Shown here: one piece after another, positions 3,530 to 57,944 of the stretch
Layout of the letters: each line of letters begins with the position of its first letter
Numbering within the stretch: position 1 is the stretch's first letter
IMG/VR virus record: IMGVR_UViG_3300046693_000004
Location: 1 to 59,395 of that record
DNA length: 59,395 bases
Direction: 5' to 3' (one strand)
Source of the DNA: a virus
Notes under the pieces: model-generated
What the model was told of the DNA's origin: nothing
Database searches by the model: none
The model's input: only the letters and a program-made list of their open reading frames with translations
Translations under genes and position numbers: made by a program

Positions 3530-3530
3530 A

Positions 3531-5695: not shown

Positions 5696-5732
5696 TTACC
5701 CGCCTATGCTGCATTGCAACATAAACGGGTAA
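5696..5732 (-). terminator. hairpin after 5757-6266
   Basis: TTACCCG / CGGGTAA outer stem with an inner imperfect stem (TATGCTGC / GCAACATA), just downstream of the stop at 5757 and before the endonuclease VII ribosome site. Confidence 0.45.
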
Positions 5733-5756
5733 TTGAGTAATGATTAAACTATAGTT

Positions 5757-28017: not shown

Positions 28018-28253
28018 TGAATGTCCTTAAAGCCATGCAAGATACTACAAGAATTGCTTTTGAACGATGCATGAAAGGTGAGGGTAGTTTAAGCTATGAA
28101 CACATAGCTGGAATGCAGATTACAATGCAGGAATCGGAAATGTCTTATGGTAAAATGTGCCGCTGGTTAGGTTGGGCACAATGTGCCGTTGTAGCTTCAG
28201 GAGTAGCTACATTAGATGATATGAAGGCAATTAACACACTCAATAAAGCATAG
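28017..28253 (+). CDS. small hypothetical protein (78 aa)
   Basis: 78 residues, last gene of the rightward operon. A helical protein with several Met residues; its middle (MGKMCRWLGWAQ-like) matches no family I know. It starts one base into the polymerase stop (TGATG) and its end overlaps the convergent CHAP-like gene by 14 bases. Confidence 0.55.
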   Translation: MNVLKAMQDTTRIAFERCMKGEGSLSYEHIAGMQITMQESEMSYGKMCRWLGWAQCAVVASGVATLDDMKAINTLNKA

Positions 28254-28809
28254 CCATTCTACTACCCGGATTAACAATCGTAAATCCAGCAATGGAACGG
28301 TTATGAATCCTTATGCGTCCACCACCCGAATTAGCATCCCATGATTTCCAAATATTTCCGCTAGTGTGACTTACCAATTGAAATACATGACCACGCCTAG
28401 CAGCTACCATTCCCGGTGCCGCTTCAGCCCTAGGGAAGCGTAGCCAGTTAGCAGCTAGCCATAGATCGCGCTTGGCCGTGCCGAAAATTTTAATCGCCAG
28501 AGCACAGCCACAGAACCGATGGGGGCAACCCTGTGGCCTTCCCCCGATAACCTCACCCACGCCTCGCGCTACGCGCCTAGCGACCCATTGAACAGGGTCA
28601 GAGGCATAGGTTTCGCCAGCATAGCGGGGAACAGAAACCCGGTTCCTATGTTGGCGTTGTGCGTAATGCCGTACCTTCACTCTTTTGTGAGCATAAGAAA
28701 GTGCGCGAGCAGTTGAATAATTTTTTCGACTATCAAAATAACGATCATCAGATTGAGCATTGGCGTTAGTAATGAAAAGTAAGCTAATAATAACAAGCAA
28801 ATATTTCAT
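28240..28809 (-). CDS. secreted cysteine-rich protein, putative cell-wall hydrolase (189 aa)
   Basis: Sec signal MKYLLVIISLLFITNANA at the N-terminus. The mature C-terminal domain (GCPHRFCGCALAIKIFG, WLAANWLRFPRAEAAPGMVA, HVFQLVSH, WDANSGGGRIRIHNRSIAGF) matches a family I remember as abundant in Bradyrhizobium. It looks like a CHAP/NlpC-type fold with Cys, His and Asp/Asn. With the membrane and lipoprotein genes upstream it looks like the end of a lysis cassette. The host clue comes from this gene. Confidence 0.6.
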   Translation of the reverse strand: MKYLLVIISLLFITNANAQSDDRYFDSRKNYSTARALSYAHKRVKVRHYAQRQHRNRVSVPRYAGETYASDPVQWVARRVARGVGEVIGGRPQGCPHRFCGCALAIKIFGTAKRDLWLAANWLRFPRAEAAPGMVAARRGHVFQLVSHTSGNIWKSWDANSGGGRIRIHNRSIAGFTIVNPGSRMAMLY

Positions 28810-29213
28810 TCTTTAATCCTTGGTGGAGCAACATCACTTTCAATTAGACGTGCTGTGTTATGTAATGCGTCTAAGCGTCTATGAAGTCCTTGCATGTCTT
28901 CTTTTCGTTCAATCCTTAACTCATCATATTGTTTTTTAACTTCATCTCTAAACTCTTTTAAATGTTCAAGAACAACTAATGTACCAGCGTTGAAAACTTC
29001 AATGGCATTTAATCTTTTTTCAATGCCACCCATAAGTAAATCTACTTTATCATCTAAACCTTGAGTACGTTGGTCAAAAGCTGTTCTAGTAGCATGACGC
29101 TCTTTAGCTAAGTGAACTTGTATTCGCCATGCTACTATAAACGAAGCTACGCTTATTGTAACTATAAGAGTTACAATAAAGATTATCTGTTCCCATGATG
29201 CGCCACCACTCAT
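28806..29213 (-). CDS. single-TM coiled-coil protein, i-spanin-like (135 aa)
   Basis: One membrane helix near the N-terminus (WEQIIFIVTLIVTISVASFIVAW) and then about 100 residues of charged coiled coil. This is the shape of an inner-membrane spanin, and a lipoprotein gene lies two genes away. The assignment rests on shape and context only. ATGA overlap with the next gene. Confidence 0.5.
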   Translation of the reverse strand: MSGGASWEQIIFIVTLIVTISVASFIVAWRIQVHLAKERHATRTAFDQRTQGLDDKVDLLMGGIEKRLNAIEVFNAGTLVVLEHLKEFRDEVKKQYDELRIERKEDMQGLHRRLDALHNTARLIESDVAPPRIKE

Positions 29214-29500
29214 TACGTCTTATCTTCTTCCTGCACTCGCGCCCAAGCAGCATCAAAAGCGTCATCTGCTTGTTTTTCTAATGCATCAAGGCGTGCAAGC
29301 TGTTCTGGAGTAACTTCAGCGTTATCCTTAAGAGCAGAAATGATATTTAGAACAAAAGGTTTAACGTCCTGATACTCTTTAATTGCTAGTGGTACAATTT
29401 CTTCTAGAGTATCAATTACCATACCAATGGTAGAACCACCGGGAACTAATGGAAGTAAATTTTCAACAAGCTTTAAAAGTCCTGTTACAACTGAGTTCAT
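29213..29500 (-). CDS. small helical protein of the lysis region (95 aa)
   Basis: 95 residues, with an amphipathic or mildly hydrophobic N-terminal half (LLKLVENLLPLVPGGSTIGMVI) and a charged C-terminal half. Could be a membrane-associated lysis or host-binding helper. TAATG and ATGA junctions tie it to both neighbours. Confidence 0.5.
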   Translation of the reverse strand: MNSVVTGLLKLVENLLPLVPGGSTIGMVIDTLEEIVPLAIKEYQDVKPFVLNIISALKDNAEVTPEQLARLDALEKQADDAFDAAWARVQEEDKT

Positions 29501-41937: not shown

Positions 41938-43161
41938 TTAAACCTTATCCGCCACTACGCAAAGCCACTCAGGACGGATATACCTAAAGCCAAATAACAC
42001 GTCCACACGAGTAGCTAACTGATCGCTATTCGGCAGATAGTCAGTAAGCACGCGCATGGAAATACCATTGTATTCCGAACGCGCACACTCCACAACGGCA
42101 CCAGTGACCAACACAAGGTCAGCGGTTGCCATCGTAACAGCCTTCTGAGTGTAGGCAATAGACTTGCGGAACACTTCACCCGGCTTAGTCACCATAAGCA
42201 CCGCACCACCAGCAGGAGCGGGAACAGAAACAGTCTGAAACTGCTGATTAACACCAGCAATAGGAGCAATCAAATCAGGGTAAATAGGAATGCTAGTATC
42301 GTTAATCGCAACATCAGCAGTAACAACAAACTGCTGAAGCGTTCCTAAATCCTGCTTATTGACACGGTTAACCTGATTAACCGTAGCAACTGTAATAAAG
42401 TCACCCTTCTTAAGAGTGGTAGCAATTGCAGTAACAGTGAGTGCAGAAACGTTATTCTGCGCACCGTTAATGGTAGATGTACCTGCGTAAGTGCCAGAAG
42501 TGTGCTTAATAACAGTCTGATCTTCAAACCAACGCTCATAGCCTAAACCAGACTTCATGCTACCAGAACGAAATTGAGCACTAATTTCAGGAGTAGGATT
42601 AAACTGACCAGCCATAGTAGCGACGGCGCGAGCATTGGAAGTAGGATCAAGAACAATTCGGCGGCTGTTCATATCCGCTGAATTTTGAGTAAGAGTTGCA
42701 TTACCTAAAAGGTACTGTTCAATACCGGGGGAAATAATATTACCACCAGCATCAACGTTAGAAACGAAGTTACTGACGCCACCTTCAGAACCATTCATAA
42801 TGGTAACGGCAACCTCACCAGCAAGGTTGTTAATAATAGGCGCCATCACCAATTCTGAGTAGTTGTCAATATCCATCGTGCGTTCAGCAGAAGTGAACGG
42901 CACTGCGATATTAACCTGATCGGAAACGGTTAAAGTGGTGTATTTCTGTTGCGTAGGCTGCAACTGCATTGCAGGACCACGGGTAGGCACATAATCGCTA
43001 GGCAGACGAATACGCAACGTCTCACCAATTTTTGCACCATCAATGGCAAATTGAGGGTCATACTGAGTATCCATGTTCATAATGAACAGGTTAGAGTTTT
43101 TGAATAATCGTACTGCTTCAGCAGTAATCATGTCGATGGTTAATAAAGTATTACCGGGCAT
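41938..43161 (-). CDS. P22-like major coat protein (407 aa)
   Basis: 407 residues with an N-terminal AVRLFKNSNLFIMNMDTQYD, ETLRIRLPSDYVPTRGP, a central insertion region and a C-terminal ISMRVLTDYLPNSDQLATRVDVL that marks the P22 coat/HK97-fold family. Length is close to P22 gp5 (430). Codon use is visibly richer in G/C at third positions than the neighbours, as expected for the most abundant virion protein. A structured leader lies upstream and a terminator downstream. A fragment of its C-terminus recurs in 50180-50407. Confidence 0.85.
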   Translation of the reverse strand: MPGNTLLTIDMITAEAVRLFKNSNLFIMNMDTQYDPQFAIDGAKIGETLRIRLPSDYVPTRGPAMQLQPTQQKYTTLTVSDQVNIAVPFTSAERTMDIDNYSELVMAPIINNLAGEVAVTIMNGSEGGVSNFVSNVDAGGNIISPGIEQYLLGNATLTQNSADMNSRRIVLDPTSNARAVATMAGQFNPTPEISAQFRSGSMKSGLGYERWFEDQTVIKHTSGTYAGTSTINGAQNNVSALTVTAIATTLKKGDFITVATVNQVNRVNKQDLGTLQQFVVTADVAINDTSIPIYPDLIAPIAGVNQQFQTVSVPAPAGGAVLMVTKPGEVFRKSIAYTQKAVTMATADLVLVTGAVVECARSEYNGISMRVLTDYLPNSDQLATRVDVLFGFRYIRPEWLCVVADKV

Positions 43162-43972: not shown

Positions 43973-44836
43973 TTAATTCAACCCCATCTTGCGCTTTCTA
44001 TATGCTTCAGATTGTGCAGCACGAATACGAGCAAATTCAGCCATATTTTTAGGGTCTAGAACATCAGGAGTAACGCCGCGTCCCTTAAGACCTTCATTAG
44101 GAGCAGGTACTTTAGAAATAGGCTTAGGCGGCTTCTTAAGCTTATTAGAAATGTCATTTAACCTTAAAGCCATCTTAGCAGGACTAAGAACATGAATTTC
44201 TTCATACTCGTCTTCATGCTTAGTAAGATACATTAATACATCACCGCCATGATTAGGAAGGTCATCAAGAATACCAATCATAGTACCCGGAATCATACCA
44301 TTATTATAATCTTCAGCCATAGCTTCAATTTTAGTTTTGAAGTCCTTATCGATTTTCTTAGCTTCTTCTGCAATACGATTAACAGAAGCTTCAAACTCAT
44401 TTTTAGTTATCTCTTCTTTAGCAAATTCTTTAGCACGCTTAACAACTTCTTCTTCAGTAAATACCTTTTCATCATCAGGACGTGCAGCAAGCTGCTTATT
44501 AGCTTCTTCTAATTCCTTACGCAAATCACGGTTCTTTTTACGCTCTTTCTCAATACGATTTTTAAGCCTTTCTCGCTCCTTAGCAGTTAAAGTTTTATCT
44601 TCTAATTCTTCCTCTAATTCTTCAACCTTCTCTTCAGAGGCTTCAATTTTTTCCTCTACATCTTCAGGCTCTTTTACTTCTTCTTCCTTAACTTCCTCTT
44701 CCTTCTTAACGCCATCCTCTTCAGCAATCTTTGCTTCGGCATCCGCCTTAGCTTTAACAGCATCGGCTTCAGTCTTAATAATAGCAATGGAATCGCGTTC
44801 GGCTTGTGCCGCCTTCTTCTGTTCTTCGGTAGCCAT
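43973..44836 (-). CDS. scaffolding protein (287 aa)
   Basis: 287 residues: Ala/Lys/Glu-rich, long acidic coiled coil (about 40-125 with EEKVEELEEELEDK), then a folded middle and a basic C-terminus (AAQSEAYRKRKM). This is the composition and position of P22-like scaffolds, whose basic C-terminal helices bind the coat. Located between portal-side genes and the coat gene. Confidence 0.75.
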   Translation of the reverse strand: MATEEQKKAAQAERDSIAIIKTEADAVKAKADAEAKIAEEDGVKKEEEVKEEEVKEPEDVEEKIEASEEKVEELEEELEDKTLTAKERERLKNRIEKERKKNRDLRKELEEANKQLAARPDDEKVFTEEEVVKRAKEFAKEEITKNEFEASVNRIAEEAKKIDKDFKTKIEAMAEDYNNGMIPGTMIGILDDLPNHGGDVLMYLTKHEDEYEEIHVLSPAKMALRLNDISNKLKKPPKPISKVPAPNEGLKGRGVTPDVLDPKNMAEFARIRAAQSEAYRKRKMGLN

Positions 44837-44837
44837 G

Positions 44838-45047
44838 TTAGGATTTCCTTTTCTTTATCTCTTGTTTGATTTCATTACGAAGTGCTTTAAAACTTGGATT
44901 TATTTCTGGCTTAGGCTTCAGCTTTTCAAATTTAGGATGCTTTAACGATTCTAAATAATTTTCTTCAACTCCTGAAAGTTCCCAATCAGCAGCTTGAAGT
45001 TCCTTTAGGGTCATGCCCACAATATCAGCGCCTTTAAATTTTGCCAT
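44838..45047 (-). CDS. small hypothetical protein (69 aa)
   Basis: 69 basic, helical residues (MAKFKGADIVGMTLKELQAA start) directly before the scaffold gene. The start is overlapped by the end of the 40-aa gene. A head-assembly helper is possible; unrecognised. Confidence 0.55.
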   Translation of the reverse strand: MAKFKGADIVGMTLKELQAADWELSGVEENYLESLKHPKFEKLKPKPEINPSFKALRNEIKQEIKKRKS

Positions 45048-45156
45048 ATGCTTTCATAATCTCTTCAAATGATTTGTCATCATCTTTCTTATAATCAGGC
45101 ACTTCTTTAGGTGGTTTTTCCTTAGCTAATATTTTAGTTGGTAATTTCTTTGTCAT
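45034..45156 (-). CDS. micro-protein (40 aa)
   Basis: 40-codon frame MTKKLPTKILAKEKPPKEVP... starting in an ATGA overlap and overlapping the next start by 14 bases. Basic, probably disordered. Confidence 0.5.
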   Translation of the reverse strand: MTKKLPTKILAKEKPPKEVPDYKKDDDKSFEEIMKAYGKI

Positions 45157-45371
45157 AGCTTACTCACAATCTTAGCTTGCTCTTTAACGTAAGATTTTAC
45201 ATCTTTCATTAAAGCCTTATCGCTACGGACTTCATCGGCACGCTGAATACTTCTCAGTGCGTCTTCAGCCCTATAACGTCTTTCGCGCTCTACATCAGCT
45301 TTATTTGGCTTATATGACACACATGAGGCAGTAGAAGGCATTTCAACTGGCAGCTTTGGTTTCTTAGCCAT
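45153..45371 (-). CDS. small basic protein (72 aa)
   Basis: Start at 45371 (MAKKPKLPVEMPSTASCVSY). A middle of KPNKADVERERRYRAEDALRS then helix; similar to short phage proteins near portal and scaffold genes. It overlaps the upstream gene by 8 bases. Unknown role. Confidence 0.55.
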   Translation of the reverse strand: MAKKPKLPVEMPSTASCVSYKPNKADVERERRYRAEDALRSIQRADEVRSDKALMKDVKSYVKEQAKIVSKL

Positions 45372-45783
45372 TTGCATTTCCTTTCATTAAAGCAGCAGTG
45401 TCACCACTATTAACATGCTCAAATCTCTTAGTATTCACAATAATTGGAGGCTCTGGCTTACAGTCTAGAACCTTGGTCAAATCAATGTCAGGCAACTTAT
45501 TATCAAACAATGCTGTAGTGTCATCATCGTGAATACGCTCTTGCAACGCAGTCCAAATTTCATGCTTCATTGCAGGACTAGCGTTAGGTTGATTTAGAAT
45601 ATCGATTAAGTGCGATACTGCGCGCGGGATAAATTTAATGAAATTGTGAGCAGCGTAATACCTAGCTGATTTGTGTTTTGAAGTGAGACCTTGAGAACGT
45701 CCAACGTCGTAGAAGACGGCTGCAAATTCTAACGCGGTGCGTTCAATAAGTGTGGTGCGCGGGGAGGCGAGTTTTTTATTCAT
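45364..45783 (-). CDS. hypothetical head-region protein (139 aa)
   Basis: 139 residues, helical (ERTALEFAAVFYDVGRSQGL, HNFIKFIPRAVSHLIDIL). I recall similar genes beside portal genes in podoviruses but have no function. ATGA overlap with the 683-aa gene. Confidence 0.55.
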   Translation of the reverse strand: MNKKLASPRTTLIERTALEFAAVFYDVGRSQGLTSKHKSARYYAAHNFIKFIPRAVSHLIDILNQPNASPAMKHEIWTALQERIHDDDTTALFDNKLPDIDLTKVLDCKPEPPIIVNTKRFEHVNSGDTAALMKGNANG

Positions 45784-47831
45784 TCTGTATTCTCAAACGG
45801 GTTGTGGTCAACTTTAACGAGGCGCGGCTTGCGCTTGAATGGGTCATCTGACACCGGGGTAAAAGTTGGTACACCACTTGAGTACAACGGAAATCCCTTG
45901 TTAGCAATAGTTTCGCGCATTTGTGGTGTGATTTTGATTATTGGGATTTTATCACCTTTTAAGTTTTCAATCATTCTACCAACAGTTTCTTCTACCATTA
46001 AATCATGAATACCATCGCGTTCGCTTTCTAATGCTTTAACTTCGTTTGATTTAATAGCTTCGCTATTTCTACCGTTATTAGTCAGTTTGTTAATTTCTTT
46101 AGTATATTCGTCCCAAGCTTTAGCATATTTAGTTTGTGCCTCTTCATCCGGCCTAATTTCATTCTTTTTAATCTTGCTCTTATCTGCAGGTAAATTTTCA
46201 TACTCCACCTTCCCGCCCATCTTTTTAATTAACGCATTAGCTTTAGCTGGCAACATGGTGTCATAAAAGGCTTTCATGCCTTCACCGCCTACTTTGAGCT
46301 CAACTCCACTATATTCTATTGCTCCTGTTAAACCTTCCTTATTATCTTTTATTATTTTTTCAGCTAACTCTTTACCTACAGTATCAGCAAGCTTATCCTC
46401 TGTAACTCTATCTGCTAAAGCATTAGAGGTTTTATGACCCTTTTGAGTACCAGATATATTGTAACTTCCATCTTGCCGCTTAGTAGCTGTTATGTTGTCA
46501 TAATGCTTACTCAAATCATACCTAGCTGCCTGTGCCTCCCCCGGAGTCCAAGACACAGCATCATAACCCTTAGTAGCTGCCTCTGATAACACACGCTTTA
46601 ATGCAAGTTCATCCCAAGTCTTTTTAAATGGTGCATTGGGTACGCCACTTTTAGCATTCCTAACGGCCTCTTGAGCTAATCTGTATTCTTCCTGTAATGG
46701 AATTAATATGCGATCAATCTCAGGCATATCAGGAAATTCTTTGCGATTTCTTAATTCTGCTCTAGCATCTTCTAATTTAGTGTAAGCTGTATCTAATCTA
46801 CTTGTTAAAGCCTTTTCAGCTTCAGGATTAAAATATCCTTGCTTCCTCCCTGCCTGATGCCAATCACTTTGAATTTCTTCAACATGCAATGTCTTACCAA
46901 CTCCGGGTACTTCTCTATCATTCATACGAATATGGGCTAATACATTAGGTTCATCCCAATGGGAGGATTTGTAGTCAGGCATTCCTTTATATCTAGATAA
47001 TCCTTCGATATCTCTATTTTCAGGTTGAATTTTATTCATTATGTCAACCCATTCTGCTTTTTGTTCTGGTGTAGCTTCCCTACCCAAAGCCTCAAGTTCA
47101 CGCCTTCTAGCATCTAATTTTTCGGCCTTATTAGGTACATTTAAAGTTAACTCTCTGTAATTTTCTCCACCCGGCAATTGCCATTGAGAATAGCTATTTG
47201 TCTTACCTTGATAAGTTGGATTTAAATTTTCATTAAACTTAATCCCATTATCCGCAACATGCTGTGCTAATTGTTCCTTAGTTAACGGCTTATCGCCAAG
47301 TCCAGTTAAACTAAATTCCAATTCTTCAGGCTTAACACCCGGTTGATTTTTTAAGTAGCTAGTCCATTGCTCAGGAGTAGCTTTCTGTACCTTTGAACCT
47401 GCAATAGTATTTTCTAAGGTAGAATAAAACTTACCACCAATAGCACCTAGAGCACCTTTTTCAGCTAAAGGAATAGAAGACATTCCAGCTAAGCCAGCCA
47501 TGTCCTGTACACGTTCGATAACAGGCTGTGAGGTATGTCCGCTATCATCAGTGATAGGCACAGCACCAGAATAAACATCACCAGCAATGGTGCTACCGCT
47601 TCTAACCATTCGTTCTGGCCAAGTCTGATAGCGTTCCTCACCACCAGTGCCAAATAACTTATTACCAATCTTACTACCTGCACTTACCTGAAAATCATCA
47701 ATTAAGCGATTATCTGGTAATTCCGGTATTGTAGGCAAAGCTAATTCTTTACGCTTGATAGTGTTAGTTTCAGGATCAATAAAATAATCCTTTGGTGAAA
47801 CTCCAAACTGAGCATAAAGATCATCAGCCAT
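45780..47831 (-). CDS. large polyvalent-type protein, probably virion-packaged (683 aa)
   Basis: 683 residues. A central motif LHVEEIQSDWHQAGRKQGYF (about 295-315) is typical of the large polyvalent proteins of phages and conjugative elements, which are injected with the DNA. Nearby SWTPGEAQAARYDL and a C-terminal PIIKITPQMRETIANKGFPLY fit the same family. The N-terminal part resembles the start of the 697-aa ejection protein (LFGTGGEERYQTWPERM versus LALGGEERAANF). It sits between portal and scaffold genes. A protective or ejected role is inferred. Confidence 0.6.
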   Translation of the reverse strand: MADDLYAQFGVSPKDYFIDPETNTIKRKELALPTIPELPDNRLIDDFQVSAGSKIGNKLFGTGGEERYQTWPERMVRSGSTIAGDVYSGAVPITDDSGHTSQPVIERVQDMAGLAGMSSIPLAEKGALGAIGGKFYSTLENTIAGSKVQKATPEQWTSYLKNQPGVKPEELEFSLTGLGDKPLTKEQLAQHVADNGIKFNENLNPTYQGKTNSYSQWQLPGGENYRELTLNVPNKAEKLDARRRELEALGREATPEQKAEWVDIMNKIQPENRDIEGLSRYKGMPDYKSSHWDEPNVLAHIRMNDREVPGVGKTLHVEEIQSDWHQAGRKQGYFNPEAEKALTSRLDTAYTKLEDARAELRNRKEFPDMPEIDRILIPLQEEYRLAQEAVRNAKSGVPNAPFKKTWDELALKRVLSEAATKGYDAVSWTPGEAQAARYDLSKHYDNITATKRQDGSYNISGTQKGHKTSNALADRVTEDKLADTVGKELAEKIIKDNKEGLTGAIEYSGVELKVGGEGMKAFYDTMLPAKANALIKKMGGKVEYENLPADKSKIKKNEIRPDEEAQTKYAKAWDEYTKEINKLTNNGRNSEAIKSNEVKALESERDGIHDLMVEETVGRMIENLKGDKIPIIKITPQMRETIANKGFPLYSSGVPTFTPVSDDPFKRKPRLVKVDHNPFENTE

Positions 47832-50179
47832 TATTCAACTCTATAATGTTGGTTATTCTGTTCCACATACCAAGCTCCATCAGGGGCCTTGCGCGCACCG
47901 GGTACAGGAGGCTCATCCGCCCCTTCCCCCTCACCACCAGCCGCTACAGGCTCAATAGGCGTACCTCCATCACCTATCCCTGCCTCGTCAATATCAGGCA
48001 TTCCTAGAGCTTCAGCAACAGCCTGTTTAATAAGAGGTTGGACTTGTTCAAGACTAAATGCAGGTCCAGCATTACCAACAGCAGCAATACGCCTACTGAT
48101 AGCGTCCCAATCATCTCTAGTCTCACCAACTTTAGCTTTTCTAAAGTTAAGTTCTAGCTCATGCTCCTTACGCTCTAAATCCTTAGCCTTTAATTCAAGT
48201 TCTGCATTTTTATCTTTCAATTGCTGTGCTTGTTCTGTAACAAGTCCTGTCAATTGCTCAATCTTATCTGCTGCCTGATGCATAGCTTGCTCAACTTGCG
48301 GGTCAGGACCATCATTGGCAATATTGGGCGGTAAGAATTTCTTCCAACGCTTTGAAAGAGCTTGCGACTTCGGGAAGTCTGCCATTTCAAAATAAATATC
48401 GCCAGCACGTTCCATAAACTCTTTAGAACTTGCTGCAAGCTGCGACATAGCACTAAACGATTCCATACGCTTAGTAGCATAAGAAGGTCCAGTATCAGCT
48501 TGAATATCATATGTACCGATATTAGGATTAAAAATTAACTCTTTAATCTTCTCATCATTATCAGTTTCATTTGTGGGCATTTCTTTTACAGCATCAGGCG
48601 CATTAGGATCAATAGTCATATTAATGATAGTACCGTCACTAGCTGTAATACGCTGCACCCGCTTTGTATCGTAAATTTTTGGAATAAGATCAATAATCTG
48701 CTTTCCAGTGTTACGAATAGCCATAGCCTGATTATCTAAGAAATGATAAGTAGCGCGATCACCTTGACGTTGCCTTGCATTAATTGCAACACCAGACTTA
48801 GCATTTTCATTTTCACCAGTCTGCGATTGATACTGCCCAGTAGTCATCATCATTTCTTGAATAGAAATCTGCATACGTTGAACATATGCAGGTGATGCTT
48901 GTGGAGCAGCAGGACGAGTAGGGGGAGGAATAGGATCGCCATTCTCATCAATATGATTATATGGTAAATAAGAGTGATTAACAGTATTAGCTGTTTTATA
49001 ATACTCTTCAAATCCTTCAATAGCAGCAGCAGGAGCTAACCACGGCACTTTAGTTTGAAGTGCGCCGTATTCAACATCAGCAGAGGCATTCCAGTTATAC
49101 ATACGCTGTGGGTCAATTAATTGACGTGTGTGCCCCTTACGATCTAACACACCATTAATAACCGTCTCTGTACCAACAAGGCGTACAATTGGAACATATT
49201 TCCCAAGCCACGGACCACGATCAATAATGCGATCACCGGCAATCTTAAACCATTGCACATCGTCAATTAAAAGTTTGCGCTCCTGATATTGATAAGCTTC
49301 TCTGTTTTCTTTATTTGTATGGATTTCTTTATATTCTAATTTCTCTTGCTCGTCTAGATCATCGATCTTCTTTAAAACCTGTCCACCATTAGCATTAATC
49401 CAAGTAACAAGCTTACTTTTCTTTTGAGTTTTGCGATAGTATTCACAAACTCTAACAGTATTTTGCGTCATCCATCCATCAGGACTATTACCACCTAAAA
49501 CACTATTACTCACAATTGACGCATATTCAGGATACTTAGATTTAAACAAATCCTTAGGTTCATCATCAAAAATAAAACCAAACCATGCATCTGAGCCGTC
49601 AACTTCATTAATATTAGGGTCTAAATAGACAGAACGAGGGTCTTTAATACGACGAATATAAATCTCTTGGTCAAATGATTCATCATCAGGATATTCAACT
49701 TGAATACGCCAATAACCTATACCAGCCTCAACTTGGAAGGTTAGTGCACTATCATAGATACTTTCTGCATTGGAAATATATTCAATATGATAGACAATTT
49801 CCTGAAACAATTGAGCAGCGTCATATGAGGCTTCATCACCTACAGGACGAATACGAACACCCGGCTTATTTTGCTTAGCATCATTAATAACCATCAGATT
49901 GTGCTGATTGGTTTTATTGATAGTGAGGCAAGGGCGATTTACACCAGTACGATCATTATATAAAACATCATCCCATTGAAAATGATTGTGCGTATCGGCA
50001 TTGGCAAATTTATAATCATACTCAAAATTAACGCGAGCTTGTGCTTCCCAAGCTACGCAAATACGAAACCTATTCTTAGCTTCAATAACTATATCGTCGT
50101 CTTCTTTAGTTGGTGGTGGTACTGGTTTATTAACCGTCACATCCCAATTTAAAGACCAATTGTTGTCATCTGTGGGCAT
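47831..50179 (-). CDS. P22-like portal protein (782 aa)
   Basis: 782 residues, close to P22 gp1 (725). Portal strings in order: WEAQARVNFEYDYKFANAD, DRTGVNRPCLTINK, GIGYWRIQVEYPDDESFDQ, DPRSVYLDPNINEVDGSDAW and a long C-terminal coiled barrel (QLTGLVTEQAQQLKDKNAEL). It forms the dodecameric DNA channel and docks the terminase. The start ATGCCCACA overlaps a TGTGGGYA site and directly follows the Tat/coat-fragment gene. Confidence 0.85.
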   Translation of the reverse strand: MPTDDNNWSLNWDVTVNKPVPPPTKEDDDIVIEAKNRFRICVAWEAQARVNFEYDYKFANADTHNHFQWDDVLYNDRTGVNRPCLTINKTNQHNLMVINDAKQNKPGVRIRPVGDEASYDAAQLFQEIVYHIEYISNAESIYDSALTFQVEAGIGYWRIQVEYPDDESFDQEIYIRRIKDPRSVYLDPNINEVDGSDAWFGFIFDDEPKDLFKSKYPEYASIVSNSVLGGNSPDGWMTQNTVRVCEYYRKTQKKSKLVTWINANGGQVLKKIDDLDEQEKLEYKEIHTNKENREAYQYQERKLLIDDVQWFKIAGDRIIDRGPWLGKYVPIVRLVGTETVINGVLDRKGHTRQLIDPQRMYNWNASADVEYGALQTKVPWLAPAAAIEGFEEYYKTANTVNHSYLPYNHIDENGDPIPPPTRPAAPQASPAYVQRMQISIQEMMMTTGQYQSQTGENENAKSGVAINARQRQGDRATYHFLDNQAMAIRNTGKQIIDLIPKIYDTKRVQRITASDGTIINMTIDPNAPDAVKEMPTNETDNDEKIKELIFNPNIGTYDIQADTGPSYATKRMESFSAMSQLAASSKEFMERAGDIYFEMADFPKSQALSKRWKKFLPPNIANDGPDPQVEQAMHQAADKIEQLTGLVTEQAQQLKDKNAELELKAKDLERKEHELELNFRKAKVGETRDDWDAISRRIAAVGNAGPAFSLEQVQPLIKQAVAEALGMPDIDEAGIGDGGTPIEPVAAGGEGEGADEPPVPGARKAPDGAWYVEQNNQHYRVE

Positions 50180-50407
50180 TTATAAATCGCCTTGAATATA
50201 CATGTTTGGGTTATTAAAGAGCTTTACAGCCTCGTTAACCCACTCAGGCTTAATCTTTAAAGAACCATACAAAACATCTACACTTCCACTATATGCAGGT
50301 ACATAATCACTTATAACTCGCATTGAAATAGTATTAGCAATAGGCAAAGAAATAGCCGGTAGAGCTACGCTGCTTAATAAACCTTTTAAGAAGCCACGCC
50401 TATTCAT
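50180..50407 (-). CDS. Tat signal fused to coat C-terminal fragment (75 aa)
   Basis: From the ATG at 50407, one base after the terminase stop, the product starts MNRRGFLKGLLSSVALPAIS, a textbook twin-arginine (Tat) signal. It then reads ISMRVISDYVPAYSGSVDVL and LKIKPEWV. The same region of the coat protein is ISMRVLTDYLPNSDQLATRVDVL...IRPEW. So the mature part is a copy of the coat C-terminus. The stop abuts the portal start. Coupled translation in the packaging operon seems likely. I know of no precedent. A longer frame to 50467 overlaps terminase. Confidence 0.65.
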   Translation of the reverse strand: MNRRGFLKGLLSSVALPAISLPIANTISMRVISDYVPAYSGSVDVLYGSLKIKPEWVNEAVKLFNNPNMYIQGDL

Positions 50408-50408: not shown

Positions 50409-51862
50409 CTACCCTCCCATCCAATTCGTTCCAGGCCTAAATGCTGGCCTAATAACTCCAGCACCAACAGTTTTAATAGGCTTTTTCATTTGTGTTTCTG
50501 ACTTTAAGCTAGTCGCAAATGTTTGAAATGCATCCGCACCGTGGCTAAATTCATTGTGTAATGGTTCTCTACTAAATGTACCTGTATCCTCATCAACCTT
50601 ATATTGATAGTTACAGAGACATTGCCAACCATCGGCCGTTGCCTCTTCATCGAAATTACAAAGATCAAAGATAACACGAGCAGCCCGAATACCATGCACC
50701 TTTTTAGCAACACGAGGAACAATTTTCACCTTCCCCGGATAGCTATCGCGCAAGATTTTTGCAGTAGAGCGTCCTGCAAGCGTTTCATTATCACCATCAT
50801 GTGGCAAATAATGATAACCATAGTTATAACCCAATGACTGTAAGTGCTGAATATAAAAAGGTATTTTCTTTAATCGATCCTGATAAAAGGCAATTAGATT
50901 ATACTCAATACCAACCTGTTGTACAAACCAAATTGAAGTATAGTCATCATGACCCAAGTCCCAAAAAGTATGAACAACACGCGAAGAGTCATAACGAACT
51001 TCACCCCTACGCTTATCTTTTAAGACTTTCTTAATCTCTTCAGCGTAAATAGCACCATCTAAAACCTGTTTAGTGTTGCCTTCCCACACATGTAAATAAT
51101 CAATATCATTTCACGCCTTAGATCGGGCGGGAAAAATTTATTATCATCATGATTGACTTTAACAACAAATGCATATCGCTTGTTGCGAATATGCTGATAA
51201 CGTTGTTTCTCTAATGCAGTAAGATAATCAATATCAATGCTATTATCTAACTTCTCTTTAACAGAATAATAAAATTTTTGGTCTTCTAGGTCAACTTCAC
51301 CGTTAATAAAATCAGGTGCATATTGTTGACGTTTAATTACATAACGTTTATAAATTTCATCATCTTCTAATTCAGGATTAAATGTAAACCACAACTCAGG
51401 ACCAAGCCCAAATGGTCCGCCCATTCCAGCAGGATCATTTTCATGGCGACCACGAATAGTAGGGCCAAGTTTATCTAATGAAGTCTTAGAAATATTTCTA
51501 GCTTCATCAGTCCAGTTAATATCAATTTTAGCTAGTGATTTAATTGATTCAATGTTATGCCGTAAACCAGCAAATAAAAATTCAGAACCAGTGAGCTTAG
51601 AAACTATTCTAGTAGCTTGAATTTGAAAAGTATCTGCTAGACTAGCAGAGTTAATACAATTAACTAATGTTTGATAGGATGATTGCGCGAGTGAATTTTG
51701 AAATTCACGACTACATAAAATACGCAGCTTCTTATGATTAGCGAAAACAGGTAAGGCTGTAGAAGCACCTTCAGTCTTACCTGCTCCACGACCACCATAG
51801 ATAATTTTTAAGCGTGCTGGTTCAAATAAGAATGCAAGCTTTCTGAGAAATTCGATTGCCAT
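50409..51862 (-). pseudogene. terL: large terminase subunit, split by a frameshift
   Basis: The upstream part (51862-51059) has Walker A GGRGAGKT (23-30) and the Walker B-like NWTDEA (D119, E120). The downstream part (to 50409) has the RNase H-like nuclease motifs TFWDLGHDDY and the final HGADAF. Frame one reads FPPDLRREM then loses homology. A second frame picks up DIDYLHVWEGNTKQ. A -1 shift near GTGAAATG (about 51107) would give one 484-residue protein of normal size. Family members usually have several more residues at this point, so a small deletion is also possible. The downstream part has no ribosome site. The ATPase that drives packaging cannot be missing from a working phage. Confidence 0.75.
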
Positions 51863-51928: not shown

Positions 51929-54355
51929 TCATGGAGGAATAACCACACCTTGATTAGTCAGCATTTGTATTGTCACTCCAGGACTGCCAGCAGTATTGGC
52001 ACTGTACACCGGACCGCTGTTGGCGGCCTTGCCTACCCACAGAGCAAAACCGGGGGCGGTCAGATCATCCAAGCTCTTCGCGCCAGTTACCGCTGACTGC
52101 GTCACGGTGCGTGTCCCGGCGATCATTTCGTTTATGACAGCCCGAGGAAAGGTCGACACGCTCCCATCCGACTGTTTAATCATGCTCCAGTTGTCCAAGA
52201 CAGACAGAGACCATGAAAGCGCCCCCGCTCCAGCGTAGACCGGGTTTGGGGTCGCTGTTAGAGACGAGAACTTGCCCCATAGCAAAAATGTAGACGCGGG
52301 GGTAGTGCCAGCAGCACCGCCCAAATAAGTAGCCGTGTGGCATGACCACAATGGCAAATTGGCAGTGCACCCCGACAACGAAACAGCGTTCTCGTTCCCG
52401 GAGCTATTGACGAAGGTAGCTTGGGGTGCGGGGTGCGGCCGGATGCTAACCGGAGTTATCCCGGCCGGAAATCCGCTCGTTGCGCTCGTTTGGATGTACG
52501 TATTATTAAAGTCCTGTGTCACATCCGTGACTTGAAACAGCCCGGCAGTCTGGCCTGCTATGGCTATAAACGAATTCGCCCCCGGAACGGCCCAACGCGC
52601 TTGGCTTTCGAGTATCCCATAACTCTGCCAGTTCGGGATTGTGATGATCCCGGTCGCACCAAATGTCCAATTCGAAGTTACAGGATGATCGTACCCCCCT
52701 GACGCTATGTCACTCGCAATCACGCAACTGGTGCAAGATACCGAATCCGACCGACCATAAGCATACGCGCCGGGAGACAACCCTGTGCCGGTACTACCCG
52801 TGTCCTGTATCGTGACGTTGGTGCCAACAAATACCTTTGGTGTTCCAAAAATATGCCCGGTAACGGTCGTGCCGGATATGTTGACCCGGTTGATCGACGA
52901 GCTTTGAAAATCAAGAGTTCGGAAGGTGCCGCCCGTAATGTTGATCGTGCCTATCATCTTGTCGATTTCGACAACGCAATTTGAGGCGGTCACGTTCGTG
53001 TAGTAGAAAGTCTCATTCTGCGATGGGATAGAGCATAGGCCGCCTATGAGAGTCGCGTCGGTGAATTTGATCGTCCTGCCATTAGTCGCGAGCGAATTAT
53101 TTGTGGTGTCAGTGATGGTGACACCCTGATAGTCCTGCACCGTCTCCCATGAGTCTTGCAGAAGGTACAAGGTTGCGGGACCACCGTCGTCAACCTCGAA
53201 CTCATTCCCGGTACTAAACTGCGGCCAAGTCGATTTGTATGTGATCGCCAACGGAGCATCGAAACAAACCTGATGCGTGCCTGAATCCGAACTGACGACC
53301 GTCCTGTATTCAAAGAAATGCTGGTTGCTCGGAAATCCGTAAGGGGTGCCCCATATATACTGGATGTTATATCCAGTCATCTGCACCTTGGCGCCGACCG
53401 GGAACAGCGAGGTTCGATCCCCGCCAACAGTGCCGCCACTCGTGTATGTACCCGCAAATAGCGAATGAAAAAGATCAAGGTGCGTGCCGTCGACCTTGCG
53501 GGACCACCAGAGCCCGTTCGTGCTATTGTCCAAGCCACCTGTAGCGACAACGCCCTGAACGAATACCGCGTCTCCATCCGTGTACCCAGTCGTGGAGTTG
53601 ACTGTGAGCCGTACAACGCCGGTTCCGGTTAATGCTTGGCTGGAAAGTGTTTGCGTTGCATTGACAGTGTATGTGCCTGCACCCCCACTGCCGCTCCCGA
53701 ACGCTGTGATGGTCGTGTACGTAATGGGCGTGTTGACGCCGATGGTGGAACCTGACCCTCGAACGATTTGGCCGATCGCAATCGTGCCCGTAACCGATGA
53801 AGCGGTTAGCGTCGTTCCGGAAATGCCTCCGGTGAACGAGGCGTCCCCAACACTGTTGGAAACATTGGAGACCGTCGCAAGCGGCTGCGTGATCAGCGTG
53901 ACGCAGCTATCGCCCGCCGTTGCCGTTGCCGTTCGGACGCTATGTTTGTTGTCCTGATATTGCCCGCGACCGCCGAGCCGTAGCGGAGTTGAGCTGGTGT
54001 TCGTGAGCGCCCCGCCGGAATATCCAGAATAAATGAAATTCTTGATGCCATCGAAGATAAAGAAATTGCCGGATGTTAGTGTCGTTAGTTTGCAATTAAG
54101 CCCATCCGCCAACAGCTTGACTTGGCTCGATCCCTGATTAGCCAGCGCCCACGTCCTGAACGACACAAACGAAGCTGTGTCGTCGGCCACGCCATTGCAC
54201 GTAGCCAATGGAGACGTACAAGGCCCCGATGCTCCCACCGTAACCCCCGTGACAGGGTTGCATGTGATCTGTGGCGTAACAACAGCCGAACCGTGTGTCC
54301 ATCCTGCAACGACCAATAGTATGAAAATAAGAAAGGGTAGTTTTTTCACACTCAC
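51929..54355 (-). CDS. secreted tail fibre / pectate-lyase-like spike (808 aa)
   Basis: Sec signal (KKLPFLIFILLVVAGWTHG), then CNGVADDTASFVSFRTWALAN, which is the N-terminal turn of pectate-lyase-like beta-helix spikes, and a long beta-helical body. Residues about 180-260 carry the GTIAIGQIVRGSG...GSGGAGTYTVNATQTLSS module also found in the 951-aa tailspike. Base composition is clearly richer in GC than the rest of the genome. It is probably a receptor-binding or depolymerase protein acquired with its neighbour. ATGA overlap with 54352. Confidence 0.65.
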   Translation of the reverse strand: MSVKKLPFLIFILLVVAGWTHGSAVVTPQITCNPVTGVTVGASGPCTSPLATCNGVADDTASFVSFRTWALANQGSSQVKLLADGLNCKLTTLTSGNFFIFDGIKNFIYSGYSGGALTNTSSTPLRLGGRGQYQDNKHSVRTATATAGDSCVTLITQPLATVSNVSNSVGDASFTGGISGTTLTASSVTGTIAIGQIVRGSGSTIGVNTPITYTTITAFGSGSGGAGTYTVNATQTLSSQALTGTGVVRLTVNSTTGYTDGDAVFVQGVVATGGLDNSTNGLWWSRKVDGTHLDLFHSLFAGTYTSGGTVGGDRTSLFPVGAKVQMTGYNIQYIWGTPYGFPSNQHFFEYRTVVSSDSGTHQVCFDAPLAITYKSTWPQFSTGNEFEVDDGGPATLYLLQDSWETVQDYQGVTITDTTNNSLATNGRTIKFTDATLIGGLCSIPSQNETFYYTNVTASNCVVEIDKMIGTINITGGTFRTLDFQSSSINRVNISGTTVTGHIFGTPKVFVGTNVTIQDTGSTGTGLSPGAYAYGRSDSVSCTSCVIASDIASGGYDHPVTSNWTFGATGIITIPNWQSYGILESQARWAVPGANSFIAIAGQTAGLFQVTDVTQDFNNTYIQTSATSGFPAGITPVSIRPHPAPQATFVNSSGNENAVSLSGCTANLPLWSCHTATYLGGAAGTTPASTFLLWGKFSSLTATPNPVYAGAGALSWSLSVLDNWSMIKQSDGSVSTFPRAVINEMIAGTRTVTQSAVTGAKSLDDLTAPGFALWVGKAANSGPVYSANTAGSPGVTIQMLTNQGVVIPP

Positions 54356-55100
54356 CCGCCAATAATCTTGCCGCCACCGCCACCAATCGCTGGTGGTGTT
54401 ATAGTCGCGGAATTACCTCCGAAATTAAACGAATTGGTAACGGTCGGTTGCGTGCCGGTGAAGATAATGTTGTGCAAACCACTCCACTGGATCGTTGAAC
54501 CAGACGCAGATACTATCGTGGCAACTCCGCTATTCACACTGCCTGGGGCGATTAGAATCTGATTTGTCGACGTTCCGACCCAATTAAAGGCGTTTGTGAC
54601 TGTTTGCGTCCCGCCTTGAGGAAAGAAAACTGAATTAGGGGCACCGATATTGAGCGTAGCGAATGTGTTGTTGCTAAAAACATTGATCGCTCCACCGCTA
54701 CTGTTCGCGCTAAACGTAACGGTATTGTAGGTTTTTCCACCCCCGTCAAATTGAAGAAAGCCAGTTCCGACACCTGTATAAGCGATTGTCGATCCATTAG
54801 CATTCAGTGTTAGCGTACCGCCGCCTGCGCTGGCATCCCATAATGTGCCGTTGTTCGAATTGTCGGAAAGAGTCCACGTTCCATTTCCAAGATTGACCGT
54901 TTTAGTACCAGACCCGCTACATCCCATTGAAGGACTGGCAGTCAACGTAACGTTTTTATTATTTGCGCTCCAGTCCAGGGTGCCACCAAACGTCCCACAT
55001 ACAATCCTCTGAAGGTTAATAAGATCAATCGTAACAGTGACGGTCCCTCCTCCCGAGGCGCTGTCAAATGTTGCGATATCTCCAGTATTCATCGGAATAC
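51929..55100. other. GC-rich foreign module
   Basis: By eye the base composition rises to about 55% GC here against about 38-40% elsewhere, with GC-rich third positions. It has only one TGTGGGYA site, near its edge (52034). The module holds the 808-aa spike and most of the 307-aa gene. Recent acquisition from a GC-rich source is the simplest reading. Confidence 0.65.
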
Positions 55101-55275
55101 TACTAGTAGCTGCACAGGTTCCGGGAACTCCACCAGTAGAACTAGCCCATGACGAAATATTAATAGCTGTAAAACTACCTGTTCCACCTACCCAAAAACA
55201 GTTAGCAGCCGCGTTTGCTTTAGTAATAAATAAAGATACAAGAAAAAGAAGTGCAACACGCATAATAATTTTCAT
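54352..55275 (-). CDS. secreted beta-rich tail-region protein (307 aa)
   Basis: Start at 55275 set by an ATGA overlap (MKIIMRVALLFLVSLFITKA): a Sec signal ending NAA. The mature part is Gly/Ser/Thr-rich beta repeat (NCFWVGGTGSFTAINISSWAS start), like autotransporter-like or fibre domains. Composition changes inside the gene: AT-rich for the first 50 or so codons, GC-rich after about 55100, so it looks like a mosaic joint. Function probably surface binding. Confidence 0.6.
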   Translation of the reverse strand: MKIIMRVALLFLVSLFITKANAAANCFWVGGTGSFTAINISSWASSTGGVPGTCAATSSIPMNTGDIATFDSASGGGTVTVTIDLINLQRIVCGTFGGTLDWSANNKNVTLTASPSMGCSGSGTKTVNLGNGTWTLSDNSNNGTLWDASAGGGTLTLNANGSTIAYTGVGTGFLQFDGGGKTYNTVTFSANSSGGAINVFSNNTFATLNIGAPNSVFFPQGGTQTVTNAFNWVGTSTNQILIAPGSVNSGVATIVSASGSTIQWSGLHNIIFTGTQPTVTNSFNFGGNSATITPPAIGGGGGKIIGG

Positions 55276-56183
55276 TGCTGCACCCATGCAATATGTCCTG
55301 CTAGCGGTGTTGCTGCCGAAGTGATTAAGCATAAATCTACATTAGTTCCTGCTGTAGCAGCTACAGCGAAACCACCATTACCCATAGAAACACCACCATT
55401 TGCTGCAAAATTAGGACCATTAGCAGCAGTAGTACCGCCAACTACACCAGCAGTGCCACTACCACAAGTACCGCCTGTACCTTCCACTATACCCACATTA
55501 TCAGCAGCAGCCGAAGTTAGAAGCATATAACAAACATATGTCTTTTTTGACGCCGCTGGAGCTACAATGCGCGTTGTAGTGACTGTAGTAATACTAATTG
55601 GTGTATAAGTTTTAGCTACAGTCTGACAAGGATCGCCAATTTGACCAACTAAATTGCCACCAACATTTAAACCATTATAGCTTGCATTAGCAGGAACAGC
55701 AGCGGCCGTAGCACCAACCCCAACTTGTGAGGATGTAAGAGCTACTAAATTTGTAGTACCGGGCGTAGTTTGATCTATTCCAACTTTACCAATAATAGCA
55801 GAACCGGCAGTTAATGAACCAATAGCATTAGTTCCTGCTGGAATAGCACCAGCAGTGTTAGAAATAATAGTATCTAATTTAGTTAATTCAGAAGTCTGGT
55901 TAGCTGCTGTAGCGACACCTGTAACTGTAATAGTGCCGCTTACTGGAACAACTGTACCACTTGCAATACCTTGAATAGTAATCACATTAGTATTAGCAGT
56001 ACCAGCAGTACCTAAAATACTAGCTCCTGTAGAGCCTACTAAATTAACACCCTGAGATTGAACACCAGCACCAATATCGATTGTACGCATCGTAACTCCC
56101 GTACCGGGAGTTAAAATGACTGCATTATCTGCTGCTTGTGCTAATGTGGGTAAAAGGAATAATAAAGCTAATAGCTTTTTCAT
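55272..56183 (-). CDS. secreted tail-region protein (303 aa)
   Basis: Sec signal MKKLLALLFLLPTLAQA-AD. Mature protein is Ala/Thr/Gly-rich beta. Its last 110 residues (YTPISITTVTTTRIVAP, EGTGGTCGSGT, VDLCLITSAATPLAGHIAWVQ) align with the 146-aa protein of 56336-56776, so the two are paralogues. A structural or host-surface role is likely. Confidence 0.65.
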   Translation of the reverse strand: MKKLLALLFLLPTLAQAADNAVILTPGTGVTMRTIDIGAGVQSQGVNLVGSTGASILGTAGTANTNVITIQGIASGTVVPVSGTITVTGVATAANQTSELTKLDTIISNTAGAIPAGTNAIGSLTAGSAIIGKVGIDQTTPGTTNLVALTSSQVGVGATAAAVPANASYNGLNVGGNLVGQIGDPCQTVAKTYTPISITTVTTTRIVAPAASKKTYVCYMLLTSAAADNVGIVEGTGGTCGSGTAGVVGGTTAANGPNFAANGGVSMGNGGFAVAATAGTNVDLCLITSAATPLAGHIAWVQQ

Positions 56184-56396
56184 TTAAATTACCGTGATAT
56201 ATTGGCTGTTACAAGCATCTGTAAAATCTAATGAATTAGAACAACTAGGACCAACACCAGTAGCACCTTTACCAGCTTTTAAAAGTGGTAGAAATCCTGC
56301 AAAAGCAGCAGTTGAAAGAATTACAAAAGCAATGATTAAAATTGTGCGTATGACACAGCACCGGACATTTGAACAGCAGCCGAAGTAGTAGCGCAA
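56184..56396 (-). CDS. small secreted protein, start uncertain (up to 70 aa)
   Basis: A hydrophobic signal-like segment (ILIIAFVILSTAAFA-GF) is followed by CSNSLDFTDACNSQYI, directly before the start of the 303-aa gene. The only standard start is a TTG at 56396 that overlaps the upstream gene by 60 bases. An unusual ATT start just after the upstream stop is possible. A real coding frame with an uncertain beginning. Confidence 0.4.
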   Translation of the reverse strand: MRYYFGCCSNVRCCVIRTILIIAFVILSTAAFAGFLPLLKAGKGATGVGPSCSNSLDFTDACNSQYITVI

Positions 56397-56776
56397 AGAG
56401 CATTACCTTGAGGAACTAAAATAACAATCCCCATACCATCACCCTTAGAAATACCTGCCTGAGCAGTTAGGGGATATGGTCCAGTTAAGCTAGTAGTACC
56501 TGTACCGCAATTAGTACCAGTGCCGTAAACTAATGTAAAATTACCTGTACCTCCTGAAATAACATCCCAAGAGGTAACAAAAATAGTTTTACCATTAACA
56601 AGAGCAACTAATTGAGTAGTTGTAGCTGTAGAAATATTAATCGGAACTGAAGTTGCTGCTTGCACAGCAGGAACACAATTAGTGCCATTAGTAGTATAAC
56701 AACTAGCTGTTCTACTTTGTGCTAAGGCAATTGTGGGCAAGAGTAATGCCCACAATAAGATTAGGAGCTTTTTCAT
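56336..56776 (-). CDS. secreted tail-region protein (146 aa)
   Basis: Start at 56776 in an ATGA overlap: MKKLLILLWALLLPTIALAQ, a Sec signal. The mature domain (SVPINISTATTTQLVALVNG, NFTLVYGTGTNCGTGTTSL, GNALCATTSAAVQMSGAVSY) is paralogous to the C-terminal part of the 303-aa protein. Two TGTGGGYA sites lie at its 5' end (56732, 56747). Confidence 0.65.
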   Translation of the reverse strand: MKKLLILLWALLLPTIALAQSRTASCYTTNGTNCVPAVQAATSVPINISTATTTQLVALVNGKTIFVTSWDVISGGTGNFTLVYGTGTNCGTGTTSLTGPYPLTAQAGISKGDGMGIVILVPQGNALCATTSAAVQMSGAVSYAQF

Positions 56777-57315
56777 TGAAGTGGCGCCAAGCAAACGGTA
56801 ACAGTAACGCCAACAGATGATTGAATTGCATCAGCAAAATCAACAGCTAATCGATTACCAGCCGCAAGATTAACAACACCAGCCGTAGTAACTAATGCAC
56901 CTGTTTGAGTAGTGTTGGCTGTAGCATTTAAGTTAAAAGCAGTAGATAACAAATCAGTACCAGCACCGGGAGCGGCAGTACCAGTATCTTTAGTTACCTG
57001 AAGTGTAGAGGTTCCGCCAGCAGCTACAGAATGAATTTCACTGATACTTATTACTCGCATTGCACGAGTAGCAATAAAAAATACTTGATCTACCGCAGTA
57101 GTAGGTGCAGCGGCAGTAGCTCCTGTAAAATAATAAGTGGGGCAAATAAGGCCACCATTAATAGCGTCAACCGTTTTATTAAGCTGATTGCCATTAGGGC
57201 TAATAAAACCATTTGGATATTTAAGAAGCAACTGAGAACTAGCATTAGCCTGTTGAGCATGGCTTAAGCTAGGAAAACAAGCCATCATTAAAGCCGCAAG
57301 CAATAATTTTTTCAT
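56773..57315 (-). CDS. secreted tail-region protein (180 aa)
   Basis: Sec signal MKKLLLAALMMACFPSLSHAQ; mature protein is Ala/Thr-rich with a beta core (DQVFFIATRAMRVISISEIH...STLQVTKDTGTAAPGAG, in pieces) resembling the small particle proteins of other podoviruses. ATGA junction with the next gene. Terminator upstream at 57338. Confidence 0.6.
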   Translation of the reverse strand: MKKLLLAALMMACFPSLSHAQQANASSQLLLKYPNGFISPNGNQLNKTVDAINGGLICPTYYFTGATAAAPTTAVDQVFFIATRAMRVISISEIHSVAAGGTSTLQVTKDTGTAAPGAGTDLLSTAFNLNATANTTQTGALVTTAGVVNLAAGNRLAVDFADAIQSSVGVTVTVCLAPLQ

Positions 57316-57337
57316 AATAATTTGTTCCTATATAAAA

Positions 57338-57362
57338 ATAAAAGGGGCTAAAAGCCCCTTAA
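57338..57362 (-). terminator. rho-independent terminator
   Basis: AAGGGGC-TTTT-AGCCCCTT followed on the minus strand by TTATTTTTATA, between the stop at 57363 and the start at 57315. A good intrinsic terminator inside the late region. Confidence 0.75.
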
Positions 57363-57944
57363 TTACTGTGTACGGTGCCAAATGCCAACAGTGGCGCTTG
57401 TCTTACTATAAATATATCCAAAACAAGAGGCGGCACCAGTAACAACAGGAACAAGCATTGCAGTTGGTGCTGTAGTGCTAAAAGTATTGCCAGTGCCAGC
57501 GCCGCTAGTAAGAGTAGTGACAATCTGAGTACCGCAGATGCCAATACGTTGACCATTAAGCATGGTGCTTGAAGCAGCAGGAAGATTAATGGTTAATGCT
57601 GCAATAGTACCAGCAGGAGTAACAATAAGTTGGCGCGTTTGAGCATCAACTGTAATAGTATCACCAGTAACAGGAGTAGTAACAATAAGCTTACCGCCAC
57701 CTAATGACTGAATATCAATTTTAGCACTCTGCACACCACTTGCGCCAATATTTGTATCAACTGGAAGAGTTTCGTTACCAGTTAATGCAGGACCGGCAGG
57801 AACAGTCAAAGTACAAACGTTATTGTTGGTACTGGCGCAATAAGACGGTCCATCAATCTGCGGAAAATTAGGCGCAAAAGTCTGAGCCATTGCGAGAGAA
57901 GGAAATGCAGCAACAGCAAGAACTAAAAGTAATTTCTTAAGCAT
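57363..57944 (-). CDS. secreted tail-region protein (193 aa)
   Basis: Sec signal MLKKLLLVLAVAAFPSLAMAQ. The mature protein (CASTNNNVCTLTVPAG, VTGDTITVDAQTRQLIVTPAG, GICGTQIVTTLTSGAG, SCFGYIYSKTSATVGIWHR) is beta-rich with paired cysteines, fitting an exported, disulfide-bonded fold. Resembles phage fibre/decoration-like proteins. Unrecognised family. Confidence 0.6.
   Translation of the reverse strand: MLKKLLLVLAVAAFPSLAMAQTFAPNFPQIDGPSYCASTNNNVCTLTVPAGPALTGNETLPVDTNIGASGVQSAKIDIQSLGGGKLIVTTPVTGDTITVDAQTRQLIVTPAGTIAALTINLPAASSTMLNGQRIGICGTQIVTTLTSGAGTGNTFSTTAPTAMLVPVVTGAASCFGYIYSKTSATVGIWHRTQ

Follow-up and report, generated by a model that had tools for sequence, protein, structure and literature searches.

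The gene described here lies on the minus strand of a viral stretch of 59,395 nt (IMG/VR record IMGVR_UViG_3300046693_000004, positions 1 to 59,395), the whole of which is referred to as the window. Its product, termed the mimic in the following, is a protein of 75 amino acids in which a twin-arginine (Tat) leader precedes segments resembling the coat protein encoded in the same window. The relevant features are:

50180..50407, minus strand: mimic gene with Tat leader, 75 amino acids, ATG start (ORF and translation; coat match 3.4e-9)
50342..50407, minus strand: twin-arginine leader, mimic residues 1-22, MNRRGFLKG plus a hydrophobic stretch (sequence; Pfam TAT_signal 16.0 bits, under the cut-off)
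50237..50335, minus strand: mimic residues 25-57, similar to coat residues 365-400 (local alignment score 84, shuffle p=0.003)
50195..50233, minus strand: mimic residues 59-71, similar to coat residues 15-27 (local alignment score 45, shuffle p=0.003)
41938..43161, minus strand: P22-type coat, source of the mimicked segments (PF11651, 4.6e-27; phrog_283, 2.3e-47)
41962-42069, minus strand: coat residues 365-400
43081-43119, minus strand: coat residues 15-27
47831..50179, minus strand: portal protein, starting immediately behind the mimic stop codon (PF16510, 1.9e-140)
50409..51089, minus strand: C-terminal part of the terminase large subunit, frame shifted relative to the N-terminal part (PF17289, 5.3e-5; phrog_2472, 2.1e-33)
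51059..51862, minus strand: N-terminal part of the terminase large subunit (PF04466, 1.5e-28)

The ORF is as tightly packed between terminase and portal as the first-pass annotation had stated: one base separates it from the C-terminal terminase part (which ends at 50409), none from the portal gene at 50179, and the terminase stop codon lies within reach of its GGGAGG-like ribosome site, the two overlapping. The large terminase gene itself (50409-51862) is split by a frameshift into the two parts 51059-51862 and 50409-51089 and is a single intact gene in relatives, which points to either a lesion or an assembly error. Elsewhere in the window, 54352-57944 encodes a series of small proteins that start with Sec-type signal peptides (MKKLL...), some of these proteins being mutually similar.

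The relation of the mimic to the coat is apparent from several searches. Within its own genome, the only non-self match of the mimic in tblastn is the coat gene (41962-42072, E=4.5e-6, 53% over 34 aa), and in a phmmer comparison of the mature part with the ORFs of the window the coat scores 3.4e-9, followed by the next match at 0.23; a profile of 48 coats of the clade matches the mimic at 3.4e-7. The earlier description as a copy of the coat C-terminus thus holds for the larger segment but is incomplete, since mimic residues 59-71 (EAVKLFNNPNMYI) align ungapped with coat residues 15-27 (EAVRLFKNSNLFI). The order of the two pieces is reversed relative to the coat, the C-terminal piece (365-400) coming first and the N-terminal piece (15-27) second. 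Both outscore 300 of 300 shuffles (p=0.003 each) and, as previously claimed, the alignment to the coat therefore exceeds chance; chance similarity as an account of the mimics was rejected because of these shuffle tests together with the control on small ORFs lacking a Tat leader that is given below. The mimic ORF found no family match in the Pfam, PHROG or TIGR01409-type profile libraries, including PF11651 and phrog_283, and tblastn revealed no relative of it in annotated phages, nor did the species genomes contain one. The single-sequence AlphaFold model of the mimic was poor (pLDDT 58), as was an AlphaFold model of the coat made with 11 sequences (pLDDT 31), and neither is usable.

With MNRRGFLKG close to its N-terminus, the leader conforms to the twin-arginine motif RRxFLK. 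Its designation as a "textbook" Tat signal is borne out by this motif and the following hydrophobic stretch but is somewhat overstated, as the scores fall below the curated cut-offs of both Pfam TAT_signal (16.0 vs 22.7 bits) and TIGR01409 (12.8 vs 16.7). A clean AxA site is not apparent by eye, AIS at about residues 18-20 being the only candidate. The combination of a Tat leader with a coat segment is real and unusual, as had been proposed.

For comparison, eight portal relatives as well as coat relatives of up to 95% identity were taken, and the terminase-portal junction was visible in 22 of them. In none of these 22 does the junction carry the mimic gene, the slot being vacant or occupied by other small ORFs, so that the conservation at this site which had been proposed for checking was not found. 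Because it is missing from the slot in all 22 relatives, the mimic gene is an accessory gene of patchy distribution. The profile of 48 clade coats uncovered, on the other hand, coat-segment proteins without a Tat leader in the clade of the window:

L453 8003-8281: leaderless, coat N-terminal segment (2.4e-19)
L458 166-399 and 599-1009: leaderless, coat N-terminal (5e-10) and C-terminal (1.7e-5) segments
L422 249-662: leaderless, coat C-terminal segment (2e-9)
L435 3455-3739: leaderless, reversed piece order (1.1e-6)
L460: truncated, leaderless coat-segment protein (4.3e-8)
L450 1367-1762: leaderless coat-segment protein (weak match)

These proteins are encoded by small genes of the portal-coat interval, in which coat pieces are joined to unrelated sequence, and the fragments of L422 and L450 lie directly upstream of the coat. 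The same interval harbors TatA genes in L416/L417 and L435/L464 (24.0 and 37.8 bits, cut-off 21). Those at L416 8021-8173 and L435 4839-5090, both above the Pfam cut-off, directly precede Tat-led proteins of 160-169 aa. Further TatA-like genes were found at G046 5703-5825 (above the Pfam cut-off) and G041 56808-56921 (just below it), while the profile search detected none in the window. Since coat-segment proteins of the window clade occur without a Tat leader, coat mimicry as a theme does not depend on export, and the notion that Tat is indispensable to such proteins is weakened accordingly; the clade displays both Tat use and coat mimicry, but without an obligatory link between them, and Tat is optional there. 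As regards loss of the Tat motif across relatives, the coat-segment proteins of the nearest clade are indeed leaderless but those of unrelated phages are Tat-led.

The latter emerged from a search with the mimic ORF, which detected small ORFs with Tat leaders in other phages; in several of these, the mature part resembled a coat of the same contig. To find the leader motif more widely, IMG/VR was scanned with four DNA patterns, one of which alone returned at least 80 loci, and each Tat ORF was compared with the other ORFs of its contig. The resulting sample comprises 97 small ORFs with a Tat leader on 95 contigs that were chosen for Tat motifs and may be incomplete, and as the patterns catch specific spellings of the leader, class frequencies in this sample do not represent population estimates. 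Weak own-contig matches to shadow ORFs (for instance in G020 and G022) were set aside as noise. Matches to the coat of the same contig were obtained in 19 contigs (G000, G001, G003, G009, G025, G028, G029, G034, G036, G047, G051, G055, G075, G078, G082, G084, G085, G088 and S297), with E<1e-3 in 12 of the 19 and E values of 0.006-0.07, resting partly on local alignments, in the others. Apart from the window (3.4e-9), the strongest own-coat matches include G003 (8e-14), G055 (3e-11), G028 (5.8e-11), G084 (2.6e-8), G009 (1.4e-7), G001 (1.7e-7), G047 (1.2e-5), G085 (2.9e-5), G034 (5.9e-5), G075 (3.5e-4) and G082 (9.5e-4), and a second Tat-type ORF of G078 matches its own coat at 1.3e-14. PHROGs and Pfam assign the targets to about nine families of major head proteins (phrog_283, 1357, 267, 264, 334, 14242, 1328, 9953 and 3437); the family calls are weak for the targets of G001 (PHROGs; Pfam SU10_MCP 8.9e-8) and G084, and G082 and G085 have targets of 446 aa that match no family and are coats by reading only. 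Other Tat ORFs resemble terminase (G039, G030), portal (G021, G024) or the major tail protein (G046), and in the 95-contig sample no comparable match to recognised replication, lysis or fibre genes was observed.

The association with Tat leaders was evaluated by a control on the same 95 contigs. Against ORFs of 250 aa or more and with E<1e-3, the 97 Tat-led small ORFs gave 14 matches, 11 of which concern coats, as opposed to 23 matching ORFs among 3371 small ORFs without a Tat leader. The coat-type cases among these 23 are confined to two artefacts at contig ends and a single ORF, G078 3310-3609, which begins with METTRRSFLR and hence itself carries a Tat-type leader. The latter ORF was also the only one to match a coat among 109 Sec-like ORFs in the 19 contigs with known coats, a subset chosen for having matches, for which reason its Fisher values are disregarded. 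A recurrent class of small accessory proteins assembled from pieces of the phages' hallmark structural proteins, mostly the coat and often in reshuffled order, is well supported, the mimic being a Tat-led case; unrelated phages have made such fusions many times, which hints at an undescribed trick, perhaps a decoy.

Several further Tat-led proteins were noted in the course of the survey. In G088 (27767-29356, L365), an MNRRDFLK leader is fused in frame to a terminase of almost full length, no other terminase being seen on that contig, and G039 44555-45526 combines a Tat leader with a terminase-nuclease-like stretch (1.2e-9); as read from the alignment, this stretch differs from the target at two acidic positions. 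Arrays of Tat genes in G087, L259, L262, L266, L281 and L288 share an almost identical leader (MNRRDFLKGTAAAGAAAVLPL) followed by very different mature parts, one of which resembles a T4-like coat by eye. An isolated phage of Acidobacteriota, Tunturiibacter phage Tunturi_3, encodes a Tat-led hypothetical protein (XOB77230.1; L413 42137-42649) without coat similarity evident by eye, and among annotated proteins the coat of this phage comes closest to the G003 mimic.

The anatomy of the class shows common traits. Wherever two significant pieces are present, the C-ward piece precedes the N-ward one, as in the window, in L435 and in the following cases:

G028: coat 88-103, then 14-65
G025: coat 318-329, then 97-135
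G085: coat 358-367, then 28-62

Moreover, the ends of the coat are preferred: only 5 of 32 segments, which are non-independent and in part positioned by eye, fall within the 20-70% stretch (p=1e-4), and all nine segments of the window clade lie outside the 20-80% stretch, though this stretch is well conserved there. In G085, two tandem Tat ORFs cover distinct portions of a single coat, and two Tat ORFs of G055 have nearly identical leaders. The Tat leaders are under strong purifying selection: dN is 0.01 and dS 0.64 between those of G082 and G085, and the G055 leaders retain 94% identical residues at near-saturated synonymous sites. The mature parts are less constrained but dN is still below dS, for instance in the pair G041/G046 (0.61 vs 1.53), whose diverged homologous Tat-led proteins (G041 1317-1934, G046 30436-31023) are tail-tube-like and belong to phages that both possess TatA-like genes. 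Within the window clade, the own coat ranks only 2nd to 46th of 48 for the mimics; specific copying of the own phage's coat was therefore rejected there, and the ranking speaks against fine tuning to the phage's own assembly. An old duplication or acquisition from relatives is a possible origin. Judged by gene order and neighbours, the window, G028 and G088 have the mimic gene between terminase and portal, G084 has it between portal and the head genes that follow, and G003, G055, G078 and G075 carry it in replication-type operons; in late clusters it is situated ahead of the coat.

Bacterial immunity is reported to be triggered by capsid proteins (CapRel, Lit), by portal and terminase (Avs) and by the tail tube (DSR2) (PMC11087589, PMC10286901), and the phage protein DSAD1 competes with the tail tube for DSR2, thereby blocking the sensor at its trigger site (PMC11087589). 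The mimicked proteins, namely coat, terminase, portal and tail tube, constitute the same set, an overlap that may be coincidence because these triggers are also the best-conserved phage proteins. On this basis we favour, as a tentative reading of rather low confidence, that the mimic is a decoy occupying a coat-binding partner, with the Tat leader moving it to or across the membrane. The mimic, the gene of which is ahead of the coat in the packaging operon, would be made before the coat, would display elements of the coat N-arm and C-terminus, and would occupy in the cytoplasm the protein normally binding these elements, this protein most likely being an immune sensor of the host that responds to structural proteins. 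By way of the Tat leader, the mimic would then reach the inner membrane, or pass it, together with the partner that it has bound. The TatA genes beside Tat-led proteins in clade relatives agree with such a role. Tat can export bound partners without a signal of their own (PMC4273604), and carriage of a pre-bound partner would explain why Tat rather than Sec leaders are found. The leaderless versions in relatives would act as plain competitive decoys. Counting against a decoy are these leaderless clade relatives, the absence of a TatA match in the window, the fact that the own coat is not the closest, the shortness of the segments, the poor AlphaFold model (pLDDT 58) and the leader scores under the curated cut-offs. 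The wider proposition, that phages repeatedly build Tat-led mimics of immunity-sensed structural proteins (coat, portal, terminase, tail tube), capture the sensor in the cytoplasm and, by Tat hitchhiking, bring it to the membrane or through it, sometimes with a TatA of their own, is rather unlikely.

Other explanations draw on the same observations. The segments, as N-arm and C-terminal contact elements, might bind the phage's own coat, the leader holding early assembly at the inner membrane or metering coat polymerisation, a role that would agree with the location in packaging or assembly operons (window, G028, G088, G084) and with the preference for coat ends, both in the whole set and in the clade. 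Portal, terminase and tail tube are likewise oligomers. Such a tether or modulator is nonetheless doubtful in view of the replication-type operons of G003, G055, G078 and G075 and of the lack of tuning to the own coat, and the empty slot in 22 relatives implies that the mimic is not needed for assembly. Similarity to a coat family rather than to the own coat specifically, along with the accessory, patchy distribution, would suit a dominant-negative weapon whose coat segments poison the assembly of related co-infecting phages; this is quite unlikely, however, as the producer would also be poisoned unless its own coat were resistant, and the Tat leader would be left unexplained.

A secreted coat fragment acting extracellularly as a signal, a receptor blocker or a decoy for capsid-binding factors, the line taken by the first-pass annotation, would account for the purifying selection on the leader and for the Tat-gene arrays and TatA of some phages. 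Sec would be equally suited to simple secretion, yet no Sec-type small coat-segment proteins occurred in the sample, and coat proteins are not known to bind receptors; secretion for this purpose is accordingly very improbable, and receptor binding or capsid decoration by the mimic finds no support here. Finally, the mimics might be functionless debris, that is, junction fragments of coat duplication or replacement fused by chance to a leader or to small genes. The C-then-N order is what the junction of a tandem duplication gives, and the fragments directly upstream of the coat in L422 and L450 fit this notion as well. Debris would not be expected, however, to recur behind Tat leaders in many unrelated phages, to retain open frames at about 40-50% identity to the coat, to show a leader dN far below dS, or to lie often distant from the coat, and we regard it as unlikely. 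The related "dull option" of a degenerate duplication that gained its leader by chance is disfavoured because of the recurrence in unrelated phages, the almost exclusive occurrence in Tat ORFs within the sample of 95 contigs and the conservation of the leader.

Comparison with known systems places the decoy reading in context. A phage protein occupying the site at which a sensor engages a structural protein is known from DSAD1, which acts on the tail-tube site of DSR2 (PMC11087589), and the mimic resembles a known trigger class, the coat, while its sister proteins resemble terminase, portal and the major tail protein; unlike DSAD1-type anti-defence, the mimic is built from coat segments, is Tat-led and has a putative sensor as its partner. 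As in Tat substrates, an RRxFLK motif and a hydrophobic stretch are found at the N-terminus, but the scores are below curated cut-offs, a cofactor or enzyme domain is absent and the mature part consists of coat segments. Two segments are clearly similar to the N- and C-terminal regions of the P22-type coat (PF11651, phrog_283), yet the mimic has its segments reversed and, with 75 aa, is too short for the coat fold. Hepatitis B e antigen is a capsid protein with a secretion signal and likewise places capsid-derived sequence behind an export signal, although it is non-homologous, near-complete as a capsid protein, directed to a Sec-type route and encoded by an animal virus. Literature searches on Tat signals in phage or capsid contexts, on phage-encoded TatA and on capsid decoys yielded no prior description.

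Provided that the class is as it seems, small proteins derived from pieces of the own coat have arisen independently in many unrelated phages, and Tat would have a role in phages for which these searches yielded no description. The chosen pieces would then mark epitopes of coat-sensing defences yet to be found, and which part of the capsid is recognised by bacteria would become a directly testable question.
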